Origin: Prochlorococcus marinus str. MIT 9107
Lineage (GTDB): Bacteria > Cyanobacteriota > Cyanobacteriia > PCC-6307 > Cyanobiaceae
DNA: 64,000 bases
Direction of reading: 5' to 3'
NCBI RefSeq assembly: GCF_000759855.1
Contig: NZ_JNAI01000002.1
Span: 1 to 64,000, forward strand
Shown here: in pieces, positions 4,218 to 52,500 of the stretch
How the letters are laid out: each line of letters starts with the position of its first letter
How positions within the stretch are numbered: the stretch's first letter is position 1
Translations under genes and position numbers: made by a program
The notes under the pieces: model-generated
The model's database searches: none
Seen by the model: only the letters and a program-made list of their open reading frames with translations
Told to the model about the DNA's origin: nothing

Positions 4218-4503
4218 GGTATTATGCAGTTAATGAGAATCCCGTTCCCTATTCCCATGTCATGCGTCCAGATATATAAAATTGGATGAACGTCTATAAA
4301 GAATAACATCTCCAAAGAATTTATGCGAGAGTAATTTTTACTAATTTTTTATAAGCCCAAAATAGTAATGAATGTAAAAATTAATCTCTTTTATTTTAAG
4401 TTTTTAATTTAAAAATTATCCTAAACTTAAATTCAAAAATTATGAGTTTCAGAAAAATTTTAAGAATCAATTTTTTAATAGATTTTTTTCTATATCAAGT
4501 AGA

Positions 4504-6399: not shown

Positions 6400-6810
6400 C
6401 TAATTAAAAGGTGAAGTATTATTCGTAGGAGCTATTAATAGTATTTCAAAAAGTATTCCAGTTAAGGCAATTGGTAAAACCCAAATACCAATAAATCTAT
6501 GATCAAAAAATCTCAAATGATCTTCACCCTTGAAAACGTTTTGTAAAGCAGTAAATAGAGTTTCTGGTTGCTTATAGGATGGACCATTTTCAGAAGGAGA
6601 ATATGGCTTAACAAATGCGGATGCATTATAAAACTTCGCAATCTTTCGAATAAAGTAAATTGGTAAAACCCATATAGCAACAAATCTTCCTCCTAACCAT
6701 TGCCTCGCATTAGGAAGGGAATATTCTTTTATAGATTTATTATCTGGCATTCCAGACTCTAAATCTTTATAGATATTTTCTAAGGAATTATTATTAGATT
6801 TATTAATCAT
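6400..6810 (-). CDS. Two-helix membrane protein with an internal repeat
   Basis: The 136-residue protein has a polar N-terminal third and then two copies of the motif RF[V/I][A/G]IWVLPI, at residues 42-51 and 105-114. Each begins a membrane helix. The second helix (about 107-128) ends FEILLIAPTN, recalling the small one-helix photosystem I subunits, but I cannot match a named subunit. It lies downstream of two RNA-like elements and near other photosystem-like small genes. It probably arose by internal duplication of a one-helix unit. Function unknown; thylakoid location is inferred. Confidence 0.5.
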   Translation of the reverse strand: MINKSNNNSLENIYKDLESGMPDNKSIKEYSLPNARQWLGGRFVAIWVLPIYFIRKIAKFYNASAFVKPYSPSENGPSYKQPETLFTALQNVFKGEDHLRFFDHRFIGIWVLPIALTGILFEILLIAPTNNTSPFN

Positions 6811-6869: not shown

Positions 6870-7000
6870 ATTAATAAAAATATTCTTAACTACAAAAATA
6901 ACTAAAACGTAGTTAAGAATATTTTCTTTGGCTAGGTTCATAAAGACGGATTGTAAACCGTTGCAGATTCGCCAAACATCTACATATTATTTATAAATAA
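6870..7000 (-). ncRNA. Candidate small structured RNA, copy A
   Basis: On the minus strand the element opens with a hairpin, GTAGAT-loop-ATCTGC (6983 to 6963, 9-base loop GTTTGGCGA). It continues through CGGTTT...GAACCT and ends in a perfect 17-bp stem (6909-6925 with 6877-6893) followed by a T-rich stretch. A TATAAATAAT sequence lies just before the first hairpin and could be a -10 box. The same order of parts is found in copy B at 7085-7215. Exact ends are estimates. Confidence 0.5.
6877..6925 (-). terminator. Perfect 17-bp hairpin ending RNA candidate A
   Basis: AAAATATTCTTAACTAC (6877-6893) pairs exactly with GTAGTTAAGAATATTTT (6909-6925) across a 15-base loop. T-rich flanks on both sides make it a plausible bidirectional terminator. 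It lies 67 bases upstream of the gene starting at 6810. Confidence 0.7.
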
Positions 7001-7084
7001 AAAACTATTTTTTTTAAAGTAAATAATATACACAATAGTGAATAAATTTTAATACAGAATTCTGATTTAATATTTGAACTTCTT

Positions 7085-7215
7085 TAAAAATATTTAAACC
7101 TCATTTTCTAAGATTGCGAAAAAGAAAATGAGGTTAAAGGGAGGTTCTCATTACAAACCGTACTTATCAAAGCTAGCGGCTAGTAGATTTCCCTAACATC
7201 TACTTCTATATATAT
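7085..7215 (-). ncRNA. Candidate small structured RNA, copy B
   Basis: On the minus strand a GTAGAT-loop-ATCTAC hairpin (7203 to 7183, 9-base loop GTTAGGGAA) is followed by CTAGCCGCTAG and by ACGGTTTGTAATGAGAACCT. A 13-bp perfect terminator stem follows (7123-7135 with 7097-7109). A TATATATATA stretch precedes the first hairpin. Copy A shares the first hairpin, with a T-G wobble where copy B has T-A, and shares the GGTT...GAACCT part. Function unknown. Confidence 0.5.
7097..7135 (-). terminator. 13-bp hairpin ending RNA candidate B
   Basis: AACCTCATTTTCT (7097-7109) pairs perfectly with AGAAAATGAGGTT (7123-7135). On the minus strand it is followed by AAATATTTTTAAAG. Confidence 0.65.
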
Positions 7216-7421
7216 ATAATGATTTTATAAATTTAGAAAGATTAATTTTATACAAATAAGTGTTTGATATTTTATGTAATTAAATTATTTAGGAAAAGCT
7301 GATTAATGAGCTAACTAAGCTAATTGAAAGATGAAAAAAAGCATAAAGAGAAACTGCAAAAAATAAATACTGTTCTATTGGGATCATGACAATGTATTAA
7401 TTAAGAATAGATAAATTTAGA

Positions 7422-7607
7422 TTAATGTTTTGGTAAAAAGATATTTTCTAAAATAAAATTATTTTCTAATGATTCATTTTTAGGAGTCATTTTTTTTGAC
7501 AAATTATCATTATTTGAATTAAAAGCACCCCATTTTCTCAACCAAAATAATGTATAGAAAAAGGCAATAATGAAAGGGGAGCCAACAATTAAGTATCTTA
7601 TATCCAT
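7422..7607 (-). CDS. Small one-helix membrane protein, paralogue of its upstream neighbour's N terminus
   Basis: The 61-residue protein (start ATG 7607) begins MDIRYLIVGSPFIIAFFYTL and FWLRKWGAFN. This aligns with residues 1-29 of the product of 7619-7915 (MD.R..LV..P......T.FWL.KW). The remainder (NNDNLSKKMTPKNESLENNF...) is polar and unrelated to the neighbour's second half. The start lies 11 bases after the neighbour's stop, so the two form an operon. The N-terminal helix resembles PsbY-type one-helix photosystem II proteins. A local duplication followed by loss of the second domain is the simplest reading. Confidence 0.55.
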   Translation of the reverse strand: MDIRYLIVGSPFIIAFFYTLFWLRKWGAFNSNNDNLSKKMTPKNESLENNFILENIFLPKH

Positions 7608-7618
7608 CACAGCCCTTA

Positions 7619-7915
7619 CTAGTAAGCTTTAAATTGCATCGCTAAAATAGCTCCTAAAAAGAAAACAGTGGGAATTCCTAAAGCATTTACAGCTGCAGTT
7701 CTTACAGTAAATACTGGGTAACCTTCTGCTGGTCTACCAGTATCAGGAACTATTGCAGAATCTTCCCATACTTGATAGTTTTTGAAAGGAGCTACTCCCT
7801 TCTTGGGCAATCCTAGTGGAGTTAATCTAAATACATCCCATTTGCCTAACCAAAATACTGTGAAAATCCATGCAAATACTATTGGGGTAATAACTAGTAC
7901 AACTCTGAAATCCAT
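7619..7915 (-). CDS. Membrane protein with a PsbF (cytochrome b559 beta)-like C-terminal domain
   Basis: The 98-residue protein has two helices. Residues 1-24 ([20 protein letters not shown]) resemble a PsbY-type helix. Residues 66-96 ([20 protein letters not shown], then [10 protein letters not shown]) match PsbF closely: YP.FTVR....ALAIP.VFFLG.IAAMQF. In genuine PsbF the residue before ALAIP is the heme-ligand histidine; here residue 77 is Asn, so heme binding like cytochrome b559 is not expected. It is probably a thylakoid protein derived from PsbF. No psbE, psbL or psbJ lies beside it, so this is not the usual psbEFLJ operon. Confidence 0.6.
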
Positions 7916-40378: not shown

Positions 40379-41744
40379 TAATTTATTAAGAGCTCCAAAC
40401 CAAAGTATTGAGGAAACTGGTTATGCCTGGTATGTAGGTAATGCTAGATTAATCAATTTATCTGGACGTTTATTAGGAGCTCACATTGCTCACTCTGGAC
40501 TAATAGTCTTTTGGGCGGGAGCAATGATGCTCTTTGAGGTTAATCATTTTACTTTTGATAAACCAATGTGGGAGCAAGGCTTAATCTGTATGCCACATGT
40601 CGCAATGTTTGGTTATGGAATAGGTCCTGGTGGTGAAGTTACTGATATCATGCCTTTCTTCCAGGCAGGCGTGGTTCACTTGATAGCTTCTGCTGTTCTT
40701 GGTTTTGGTGGTATTTACCATTCATTAGCAGGTCCAGAAAAACTCGAAGAAGATTTTCCATTTTTCTCTACTGATTGGAGAGATAAGAATCAAATGACAA
40801 ACATTCTTGGATATCATTTGATTGTTCTAGGTGTAGGTGCATTAGCATGGTCAGTTAACTGGTGTTTTATTGGCGGTGCATATGACACATGGGCACCTGG
40901 TGGTGGTGAAGTCAGACTTGTTAACCCAACTTTAGATCCAAGAGTTATTCTTGGTTATCTATTTAGATCTCCATGGGGAGGAGCCGGTTCAATAATCGGT
41001 GTTAACTCCATTGAAGATATTGTTGGTGGACATGTCTATGTGGGTGTAACTGCAATTATTGGAGGAATATTCCATATCTTTACCGAACCTTTTGGATGGG
41101 CACGAAGAGCATTCATTTGGAACGGTGAAGCACTGTTAAGTTATGCACTTGGTGGGATTTGTGTAGCAAGTTTTATTGCTTCAACATTTATCTGGTTTAA
41201 CAACACTGCTTACCCTTCAGAGTTTTACGGTCCAACAAACGCTGAAGCTTCACAGGCCCAAAGCTTTACTTTCCTTGTGAGAGACCAAAGAATTGGAGCC
41301 AACGTAGGTTCAACAATGGGACCAACAGGTCTAGGTAAGTATCTCATGAGATCTCCTACTGGTGAAATTATATTTGGTGGCGAAACAATGAGATTTTGGG
41401 ACTTCAGAGGTCCATGGTTAGAGCCTTTAAGAGGCCCTAATGGATTAAGCCTTGAGAAAATCCAAAATGATATTCAGCCCTGGCAAGTAAGAAGAGCTGC
41501 TGAATATATGACTCATGCTCCTAACGCTTCTATCAACTCTGTTGGTGGAATCATTACAGAGCCTAATGCTGTTAACTTTGTCAACTTAAGACAATGGTTA
41601 GCTGCAGCTCAGTTCTTCCTAGGATGGTTTACATTCATCGGTCACCTTTGGCATGCTGGACGTGCTAGAGCAGCCGCTGCCGGTTTCGAAAAAGGAATTG
41701 ACAGAAAGAGTGAGCCAGTTCTAGAAATGCCTGATTTAGATTAA
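40362..41744 (+). CDS. psbC: Photosystem II CP43 protein
   Basis: The 460-residue inner antenna begins at GTG 40362 ([20 protein letters not shown]). That start is decided by an AGGAGG ribosome-binding site about 9 bases upstream, inside psbD. The six-helix CP43 fold shows [40 protein letters not shown], the large lumenal loop with [20 protein letters not shown] and [20 protein letters not shown], and the end [20 protein letters not shown]. It binds chlorophyll and helps to ligate the Mn cluster. It is co-transcribed with psbD. Confidence 0.98.
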
Positions 41745-51883: not shown

Positions 51884-52058
51884 AGGTCTTTTTCTGGTTT
51901 TACTAAATGAAGTGTTTCCTTGTTTCCACTATTTCAGTAAAACCTCTCCTACACACACCCATAATTTATTACACATTTTTCTTTTTTGTGAAAGGGTTTA
52001 GGTAATGTTAGTTATTCGACACATATACCAATTAACTCTTACAGGACTTAGTTTCATT

Positions 52059-52096
52059 AAAAAAACGCCCTTATTCTTACGAATCAGGGCGTTTAA
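52059..52096. terminator. Intrinsic terminator
   Basis: AAACGCCCT (52063-52071) pairs with AGGGCGTTT (52086-52094); an inner ATTC/GAAT extension closes the loop. T run is short on the plus side (TTTAATT). Confidence 0.65.
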
Positions 52097-52500
52097 TTAT
52101 CAGAAATTAGTGTGTGAGGAGTTTCTGATCAATTTAGTCTACTTGAACAAGGATTAAAGATTTAATTAATCATGATTAAATCAATCTTAAGGATTCATGC
52201 AAAATTTTCGAGACCGATTAATTTAATAACACGACAGTTCTGGTGATCGAAATCGACCAAGGTCGACCAACTAGATCTTCACTAATCCATGGTCTGTAAT
52301 ACCAAGGAAATTAACTCTCTAACCTTTCAGGAAAGAAAGTTAAGTAATCAGAAATTAAACTTTCGAGATTAATTCTGAATTATCTTAAAAATAAAGTCGT
52401 TAGTAAAATCTGAAGAAGTGAGTAATCACATTTACTAACAAAACTAATTTTTAGGAAAATTCTTAATCTGATTAACAAATAGATCTCCTTCTGTCGTCAC
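52097..52500 (+). ncRNA. Possible structured non-coding RNA(s)
   Basis: No coding frame exists over about 400 bases bounded by two terminators. It has more GC and more inverted repeats than ordinary spacers here: GATTTAAT...ATTAAATC near 52154, GGTCGACC twice around 52258-52268, CTTTC-AG-GAAAG near 52324-52335, and AATTAA...TTAATT near 52355. A plus-strand transcript ending at 52531 is plausible. Identity unknown. Confidence 0.3.

Follow-up and report, generated by a model that had tools for sequence, protein, structure and literature searches.

We analysed a 64,000-nucleotide (nt) stretch of the genome of Prochlorococcus marinus str. MIT 9107 (contig NZ_JNAI01000002.1, positions 1 to 64,000; hereafter, the window), in which the minus strand carries two paralogous units, each about 108 nt long, between an open reading frame (ORF) of 32 amino acids (aa; 7289-7387) and another of 136 aa (6400-6810). 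Both unit A (7203-7097) and unit B (6983-6876) are predicted small RNAs, with the 5' end of A placed at a hairpin termed P1 and its 3' end at a terminator. An earlier, sequence-only reading of this DNA had described two minus-strand elements carrying a GTAGAT hairpin with a nine-base loop closed by ATCT(A/G)C, and both are present as stated, at 7203-7183 and 6983-6963 (its copy B is unit A here, and its copy A is unit B). An exact-pattern search of the organism's own genome for this hairpin returned these two matches only—against none for a reversed control pattern. A covariance model built from 40 units with P1 as the sole helix (R1; cut-off, E ≤ 0.001) scored unit A at 79.3 bits (E = 5.1e-14 per genome) and unit B at 55.2 bits (E = 1.0e-8 per genome), the window copies being part of the model in both cases. 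The extent of the units is also marked by their conservation across loci, which in A forms a block from position 0 to about +108.

The same order of parts recurs in the two units. In A, P1 (7182-7204) is formed by 7 base pairs (bp), AGTAGAT/ATCTACT, around a nine-base loop that contains a pseudoknot strand at 7194-7190; its counterpart in B (6962-6984) pairs TGTAGAT with ATCTGCA, also over 7 bp, with the pseudoknot strand at 6976-6971 of a nine-base loop—as indicated by folding and alignment for both units. A second hairpin, P2, spans 7158-7179 in A, where folding pairs CCG (7179-7177) with CGG (7160-7158) around a loop holding the conserved GCTTTGATAA, and 6946-6961 in B, where the pairing of ACGG with CCGT draws on covariation among B rows. 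The 3' strands of the predicted pseudoknot follow: TCCCT at 7138-7142 in A, with AGGGA of the P1 loop as its partner, and GCCAAA at 6927-6932 in B, with TTTGGC as its partner. Folding then places a terminator hairpin at 7097-7135 in A, with the 13-bp stem already given by the sequence-only reading, and another at 6876-6926 in B, where the stem has 19 bp rather than the 17 bp reported there. Upstream of P1, a -10-like box is found in both units (TATATA at 7211-7216 in the window copy of A, TATAAA in most A units, and a conserved TATAAA at 6990-6995 in B); this is the AT-rich, TATA-like box noted earlier, and it is real. A second box, TGTATA, lies further upstream, at -51 in A (7249-7254) and at -49 in B (7027-7032), and is conserved among the units of each class. 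The GGTT...GAACC segments of the same reading also exist in both units, but a GGTT/AACC pairing is not kept across B copies and is invariant in most A units, which makes it uninformative as evidence for a helix.

The central structural element, missed in the sequence-only reading, is a predicted pseudoknot between the P1 loop and a C-rich strand just 5' of the terminator. At least four contiguous pairs (G-U counted) can form in 60 of the 61 distinct loop/strand combinations, several of them by way of compensatory changes. With the best register taken for real and shuffled strands alike, the mean pairing score of the 61 combinations was 12.6, compared with 9.6 when strands were shuffled among all units and 11.1 when they were shuffled within each paralogue class—and none of 2000 shuffles scored as high in either comparison. 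In A, AGGG/CCCU is replaced by AGAG/CUCU in other genomes (i.e., GGG/CCC by GAG/CUC), and AGGG/CUCU, with its G-U pair, also occurs, as an intermediate would. A comparison of strands in B shows a change from UUUGGC/GCCAAA to UUCGGC/GCCGAA, and the UUGGGC loop of a deep clade can pair with GCCCGA. The connecting loops—about 3 nt beside a helix of 4-5 bp in A, and 1 nt beside a 6-bp helix in B—would fit an ordinary H-type pseudoknot.

Comparative analysis of the structure was based on 147 distinct units (63 A, 76 B and 8 belonging to a third paralogue, C), of which 40 (16 A, 16 B and 8 C) make up the alignment used for the model (A3). P1 is paired in 93.9% of the cells of these 40 units, with its outer pair being U-A in 20, A-U in 15 and unpaired in 5. 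In 6 of the 16 B rows, both sides of P2 have changed so that G-C becomes C-G, and two of its pairs show two-sided changes in C. For P1 across the three paralogues together, and for the helices of B, no shuffle out of 500 reached the covariation score. Some cells were misaligned in alignments A4 (the P1 rows of loci L043 and L152 and the P2 row of L150) and A5 (deep B rows shifted by one in the pseudoknot), so that the counts made there by the tool are too low, and the pseudoknot was recounted from explicit strands. By these comparisons, P1, P2 (in B and C) and the pseudoknot are the supported helices among those predicted, and structure is conserved in the absence of a conserved reading frame—more weakly for A and C taken alone. 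When folded against 200 shuffles, whole units gave z scores of -2.90 for A (1 of 200 as good) and -5.47 for B (0 of 200), an advantage that stems from the terminators; the best single-sequence fold of the whole of A lacks P1.

Units were detected by R1 in 127 of 265 congeneric genomes, i.e., about half, a breadth of conservation that excludes a chance origin. Among the 87 genomes with a completeness of 90% or more and a contamination of 5% or less, 56 carry them. Two copies are present in 118 of the 127 carriers, three in 8 and four in 1, with no carrier having a single copy. The four-copy genome, which is complete, contains two whole cassettes (L207 and L208), and in the three-copy genomes that were read, including the HNLC1 and HNLC2 assemblies (G403 and G405) and G389 (L043), the third unit, C, lies upstream of A. 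A BLAST search of 266 congeneric genomes with the 334-bp region gave long or strong matches, selected by hand, in 128. Outside the genus, the R1 scan of 400 family genomes yielded no convincing match; weak matches in genera g56 (three genomes) and g11 (one), with E values of 0.004-0.05, were rejected, since either the GGG/CCC strands or P1 are missing from them and they do not lie on the contig of the 136-aa gene. A BLAST search of phage sequences returned 15 records with short or weak matches only (E from 2e-3 to 0.3). In IMG/VR, a single exact hairpin match (L005) was discarded, as it was not among the BLAST matches of the region, and one pattern each for A and B gave none. The duplicated small RNA family with conserved structure proposed in the sequence-only reading is thus supported by comparative data, with the pseudoknot as its key element and a third copy in some genomes as corrections, and the further copies with compensatory changes that it had set beforehand as a test were found in congeneric genomes. 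We regard as real, on these comparisons, a tandem family of conserved, predicted pseudoknotted small RNA genes, present only in this genus among the genomes searched.

The boundaries of the units were drawn from a conservation profile of 71 of the 98 distinct high-light loci and of eight deep-clade loci. In the high-light loci, high pairwise identity extends from about -51 through the end of terminator A (+108), gives way to about 0.5-0.65 over much of the spacer between A and B, returns at the upstream box of B, persists through terminator B and then drops to about 0.5, with insertions and deletions, before the start of the 136-aa ORF—the least conserved stretch of the locus. Among distinct units, TGTATA is positioned at -50 to -52 in all 63 of A, at -49 in 68 of the 76 of B and at -50 in all 8 of C; TATAAA occupies -13 in 49 of the 63 A units and -12 in 75 of the 76 B units (counts made without a chance control). 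The terminator stems have median lengths of 13 bp in A (n = 57), 18 bp in B (n = 73) and 14 bp in C (n = 8 distinct units), each unit having a predicted intrinsic terminator of its own. These terminators differ between paralogues, as the sequence-only reading had it, but are conserved within each paralogue in high-light loci. The terminator loop of C, ACTTGGCATAGAT, is identical in the folded C units (L155, L153 and L043), and that of A is nearly invariant in high-light loci; both are possible functional loops. In two single-cell genomes, A and B are separated by two inserted ORFs, one of them a Crp-family gene with weak similarity to PtrA and NtcA (L044, 1415-2300, plus strand; L045, 1418-2303, minus strand), with both genomes retaining two R1 matches despite the insertion. 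The block boundaries, the boxes at near-fixed distance and the ORFs between A and B together indicate separate transcription units. A regulon defined by the upstream box was considered and dropped, the exact consensus occurring once in the organism's own genome (at A, with B one base off) against three occurrences of a reversed control. With one mismatch allowed, the window contains 4 such boxes against 1.25 expected (5 of 100 shuffles had as many), and no regulon was found in it.

The two units are part of a cassette of small membrane-protein genes encoded on the same strand. The long form of cytochrome b559 beta (7619-7915; NF002720, E = 4.6e-63) is followed by a 62-aa relative of its N-terminal half (7422-7610), which falls below the NCBIfam cut-off and has no b559-like C-terminal half, and by the small, conserved 32-aa ORF, whose identity is 68-90% at four loci from three further genomes. 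The RNA units come next, and then the 136-aa gene, whose product resembles a membrane protein; a divergent 127-aa gene lies on the other side of the cassette. The elements had been placed in front of photosystem-like genes by the sequence-only reading, which is half right: they lie behind the b559 beta long form and its relatives, and the gene ahead of them is the 136-aa one. Its product had no match in Pfam (E up to 0.1), NCBIfam (E up to 1) or PDB sequences (E up to 10), nor a phage match at E 0.01. The upstream set of the b559, 62-aa and 32-aa genes is present in the window and at four other loci (L205-L208), whereas another gene, of 59 aa, lies upstream in the deep-clade and G389 loci, which show no match to the upstream genes of the window (L209 and L210).

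Over 266 genomes, RNAs and the 136-aa gene occur together in 126, with RNA only in 2, the gene only in 1 and neither in 137. For this tabulation, RNA carriers were selected by hand (128 of 266, with a best E of 2.0e-19 or lower and weaker matches dropped, G462 being left out with 61 bases matched at the B terminator at E = 8.0e-19), and 127 of 131 gene matches were taken. The four left out are gene remnants in RNA-less genomes—one with an internal stop (G095) and fragments in G383, G410 and G321. All three exceptions (G563, G425 and G514) are at contig ends. Because the RNAs and the gene adjoin, this co-occurrence is evidence of inheritance as a block and not of regulation. Beyond this genus, 17 genera of the family also have relatives of the 136-aa gene (E ≤ 0.001). 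Many of them (among L217-L230 and L233-L236) lie in a longer open frame. At one locus of genus g4 (L228), a b559 beta long form reads directly before the relative, as judged by eye. With filters off, none of 18 such loci in other genera yielded an R1 match below E 0.8 and, since the gene stands there without RNA, the RNAs look like an addition to the cassette in this genus.

Our preferred reading, to which we assign a probability of roughly 0.7, is that A and B are paralogous genes in tandem, each encoding a free-standing, non-coding small RNA (about 108 nt) that has its own promoter and terminator and probably acts in trans. Transcription of each unit would start from a promoter of its own, marked by the shared TGTATA box near -50 and a -10 box at about -12, and would stop at an intrinsic terminator of its own; the 5' part would form a compact pseudoknot of the H type into which a hairpin is inserted, while the 3' part would serve as the terminator. 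The two RNAs would then act in trans on putative targets, co-regulated via the shared upstream box. The predicted structure, the unit boundaries in high-light loci, the tandem retention and the linkage to the cassette are supported by comparison among genomes, and transcription of the units is likely; promoter independence, as well as a target or partner, we infer. Trans-action by base pairing is taken as the default, with protein or ligand binding as the main alternative.

Several results weigh against this reading. The 5' cores alone folded no better than shuffles (z scores of -1.40 and -1.37, with 20 and 19 of 200 as good), and P2 of A, showing no covariation among A rows, is unproven there. 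The covariation score was matched by 19 of 500 shuffles for A and by 31 of 500 for C, and the pairs with two-sided changes were not above shuffles in any of four alignments (272, 267, 78 and 93 of 500 reached the count); the shuffles ignore the relatedness of the units, leaving it in place, so these fractions are not probabilities. As to the promoters, no upstream box could be located in 5 of the 76 B units and a further 3 have it with one mismatch, the -10 box of C is irregular, and the counts for both boxes are raw. The T-run after terminator A is poor. In the eight deep-clade loci, the edges of the blocks are blurred, with identities of about 0.5-0.8 in the spacer and of 0.65-0.90 after terminator B. 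When A and B were screened for duplexes with five cassette genes, mean z scores were -1.40 to 1.18, with nothing convincing. The best duplex, between B and the start region of the 62-aa gene (mean z of -1.40 over 68 distinct pairs), involves mostly the end of the upstream coding sequence and may be seen as a lead.

The units might instead be tandem riboswitch-like or attenuator leaders, i.e., pseudoknot aptamers controlling terminators upstream of the 136-aa gene. The pseudoknot sits directly 5' of the terminator, the RNAs and the gene co-occur as tabulated above, and tandem riboswitches are known in marine cyanobacteria (PMC2864571); moreover, the conserved stretch from terminator B to the gene makes a leader role possible in the deep-clade loci. 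However, no conserved antiterminator is apparent: as long as the 3' arm of the terminator is unmade, upstream pairing of its 5' arm gains a median of -2.4 (A), -2.9 (B) and -0.2 (C) kcal/mol, far exceeded by the terminators themselves, with medians of -15.8, -19.8 and -15.4 kcal/mol, respectively. A leader would also have to span the stretch that is least conserved in the 71 high-light loci, across units with their own promoter-like boxes and, in L044 and L045, past two intervening ORFs—and the gene does without the RNA in the 18 loci of other genera. Conserved blocks with a sharp drop after the terminators in high-light loci favour free-standing small RNAs over riboswitch leaders, and we consider the latter quite unlikely. 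A further alternative would be plain tandem terminators, or pieces of the 3' untranslated region of the upstream operon, as strong terminators end both units downstream of b559-like genes; yet a conserved 5' core, a covarying pseudoknot and promoter-like boxes would be superfluous for a terminator, two or more complete units are retained, and this explanation is highly improbable.

Short coding genes would account for an ATGA that precedes the C-rich strand; among distinct units, it is present in 56 of 63 in A, 63 of 76 in B and 7 of 8 in C. However, ATGA is missing in 21 of the 147 units, including deep B units (GATAACC); in A, the frame it opens ends after five codons, and in B and C the frame is broken by length changes of a single base (both judged by eye), so that we give coding next to no credence. 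The main alternative to our preferred reading is that the pseudoknot RNAs, free-standing as well, have a protein or a small ligand as their partner and act as a decoy or sensor instead of pairing with mRNA. A compact H-type pseudoknot with covarying strands would suit such a role, as would the highly conserved unpaired stretches of A (GCTTTGATAA and GAGAACC) and the presence of at least two copies in each of the 127 carriers. Yet no partner is known, and the conserved stretches would suit antisense seeds equally, leaving this alternative possible though on balance unlikely. Along these lines, tandem aptamer-like pseudoknot RNAs could serve a dispensable, photosystem-associated cassette as a sensor or by titrating a protein, the copies having become specialised such that no copy is retained singly—a conjecture that we put forward as doubtful.

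For the proposed small RNAs, Rfam 15 gave no match at gathering score in the window region or at the other loci scanned (L043 and the three-copy locus L155), and permissive, sub-gathering matches were to unrelated families and were disregarded. Elsewhere in the window, all on the minus strand, Rfam matches comprise a glutamine-II riboswitch (4233-4295), IsrR (40776-40959), Cyano-1 (51891-51958) and Yfr10 (52049-52129). One congeneric genome, G152 (one contig of 1,657,990 bases), which we take to be MED4, has neither an R1 match nor the 136-aa gene. Yfr19, considered for its similar position in MED4, was dropped because the element is lacking there. With RNA and gene both missing, the units should not be among the MED4 Yfr RNAs listed in PMC2518516. 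Yfr2-Yfr5 are described in PMC1242208 as short paralogous RNAs at distant loci, several to a genome, with a GGAAACA loop motif and a conserved hairpin at the 5' end. The units resemble them (and Cyano-1, RF01701) as paralogous short RNAs with several copies per genome and a conserved 5' hairpin, but they are arranged in tandem and predicted to be pseudoknotted, their loops are without GGAAACA and they have no RF01701 match. They are also like Yfr11 and Yfr16, two similar small RNAs paired within one Prochlorococcus genome (PMC2518516). The STAXI motif, a pseudoknot repeated two to three times in tandem (PMC2864571), shares the tandem pseudoknots, but A and B have no STAXI match among Rfam matches up to E 5. 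The glutamine-II (Downstream-peptide) riboswitch, RF01704, is likewise a small structured element of marine cyanobacteria, with the difference that its Rfam match lies at 4233-4295 and not at A or B. Sibling small RNAs such as Qrr, OmrA/B and LhrC are multicopy, partly tandem and trans-acting, with divergent parts, and their base pairing has been shown experimentally. A and B are similar to these as multicopy tandem siblings with divergent parts, with base pairing as a putative mode of action. A literature search, with supplementary tables outside its scope, found no paper tied to the locus. An unnamed entry may exist in the 2014 comparative transcriptome of Prochlorococcus or the 2009 ocean small-RNA survey. 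The family appears not to have been described yet.

High-light Prochlorococcus are among the most abundant photosynthetic organisms and have few regulatory proteins, which is why their RNAs matter. Much of the discovery of small RNAs in Prochlorococcus relied on MED4, and the lack of the locus in that strain—if G152 is indeed MED4—could explain the absence from Rfam of a family found in 56 of 87 good genomes. The retention of siblings in every carrier, together with the covarying pseudoknot and the linkage to the b559 long-form cassette, would open this family to precise and cheap experiments.
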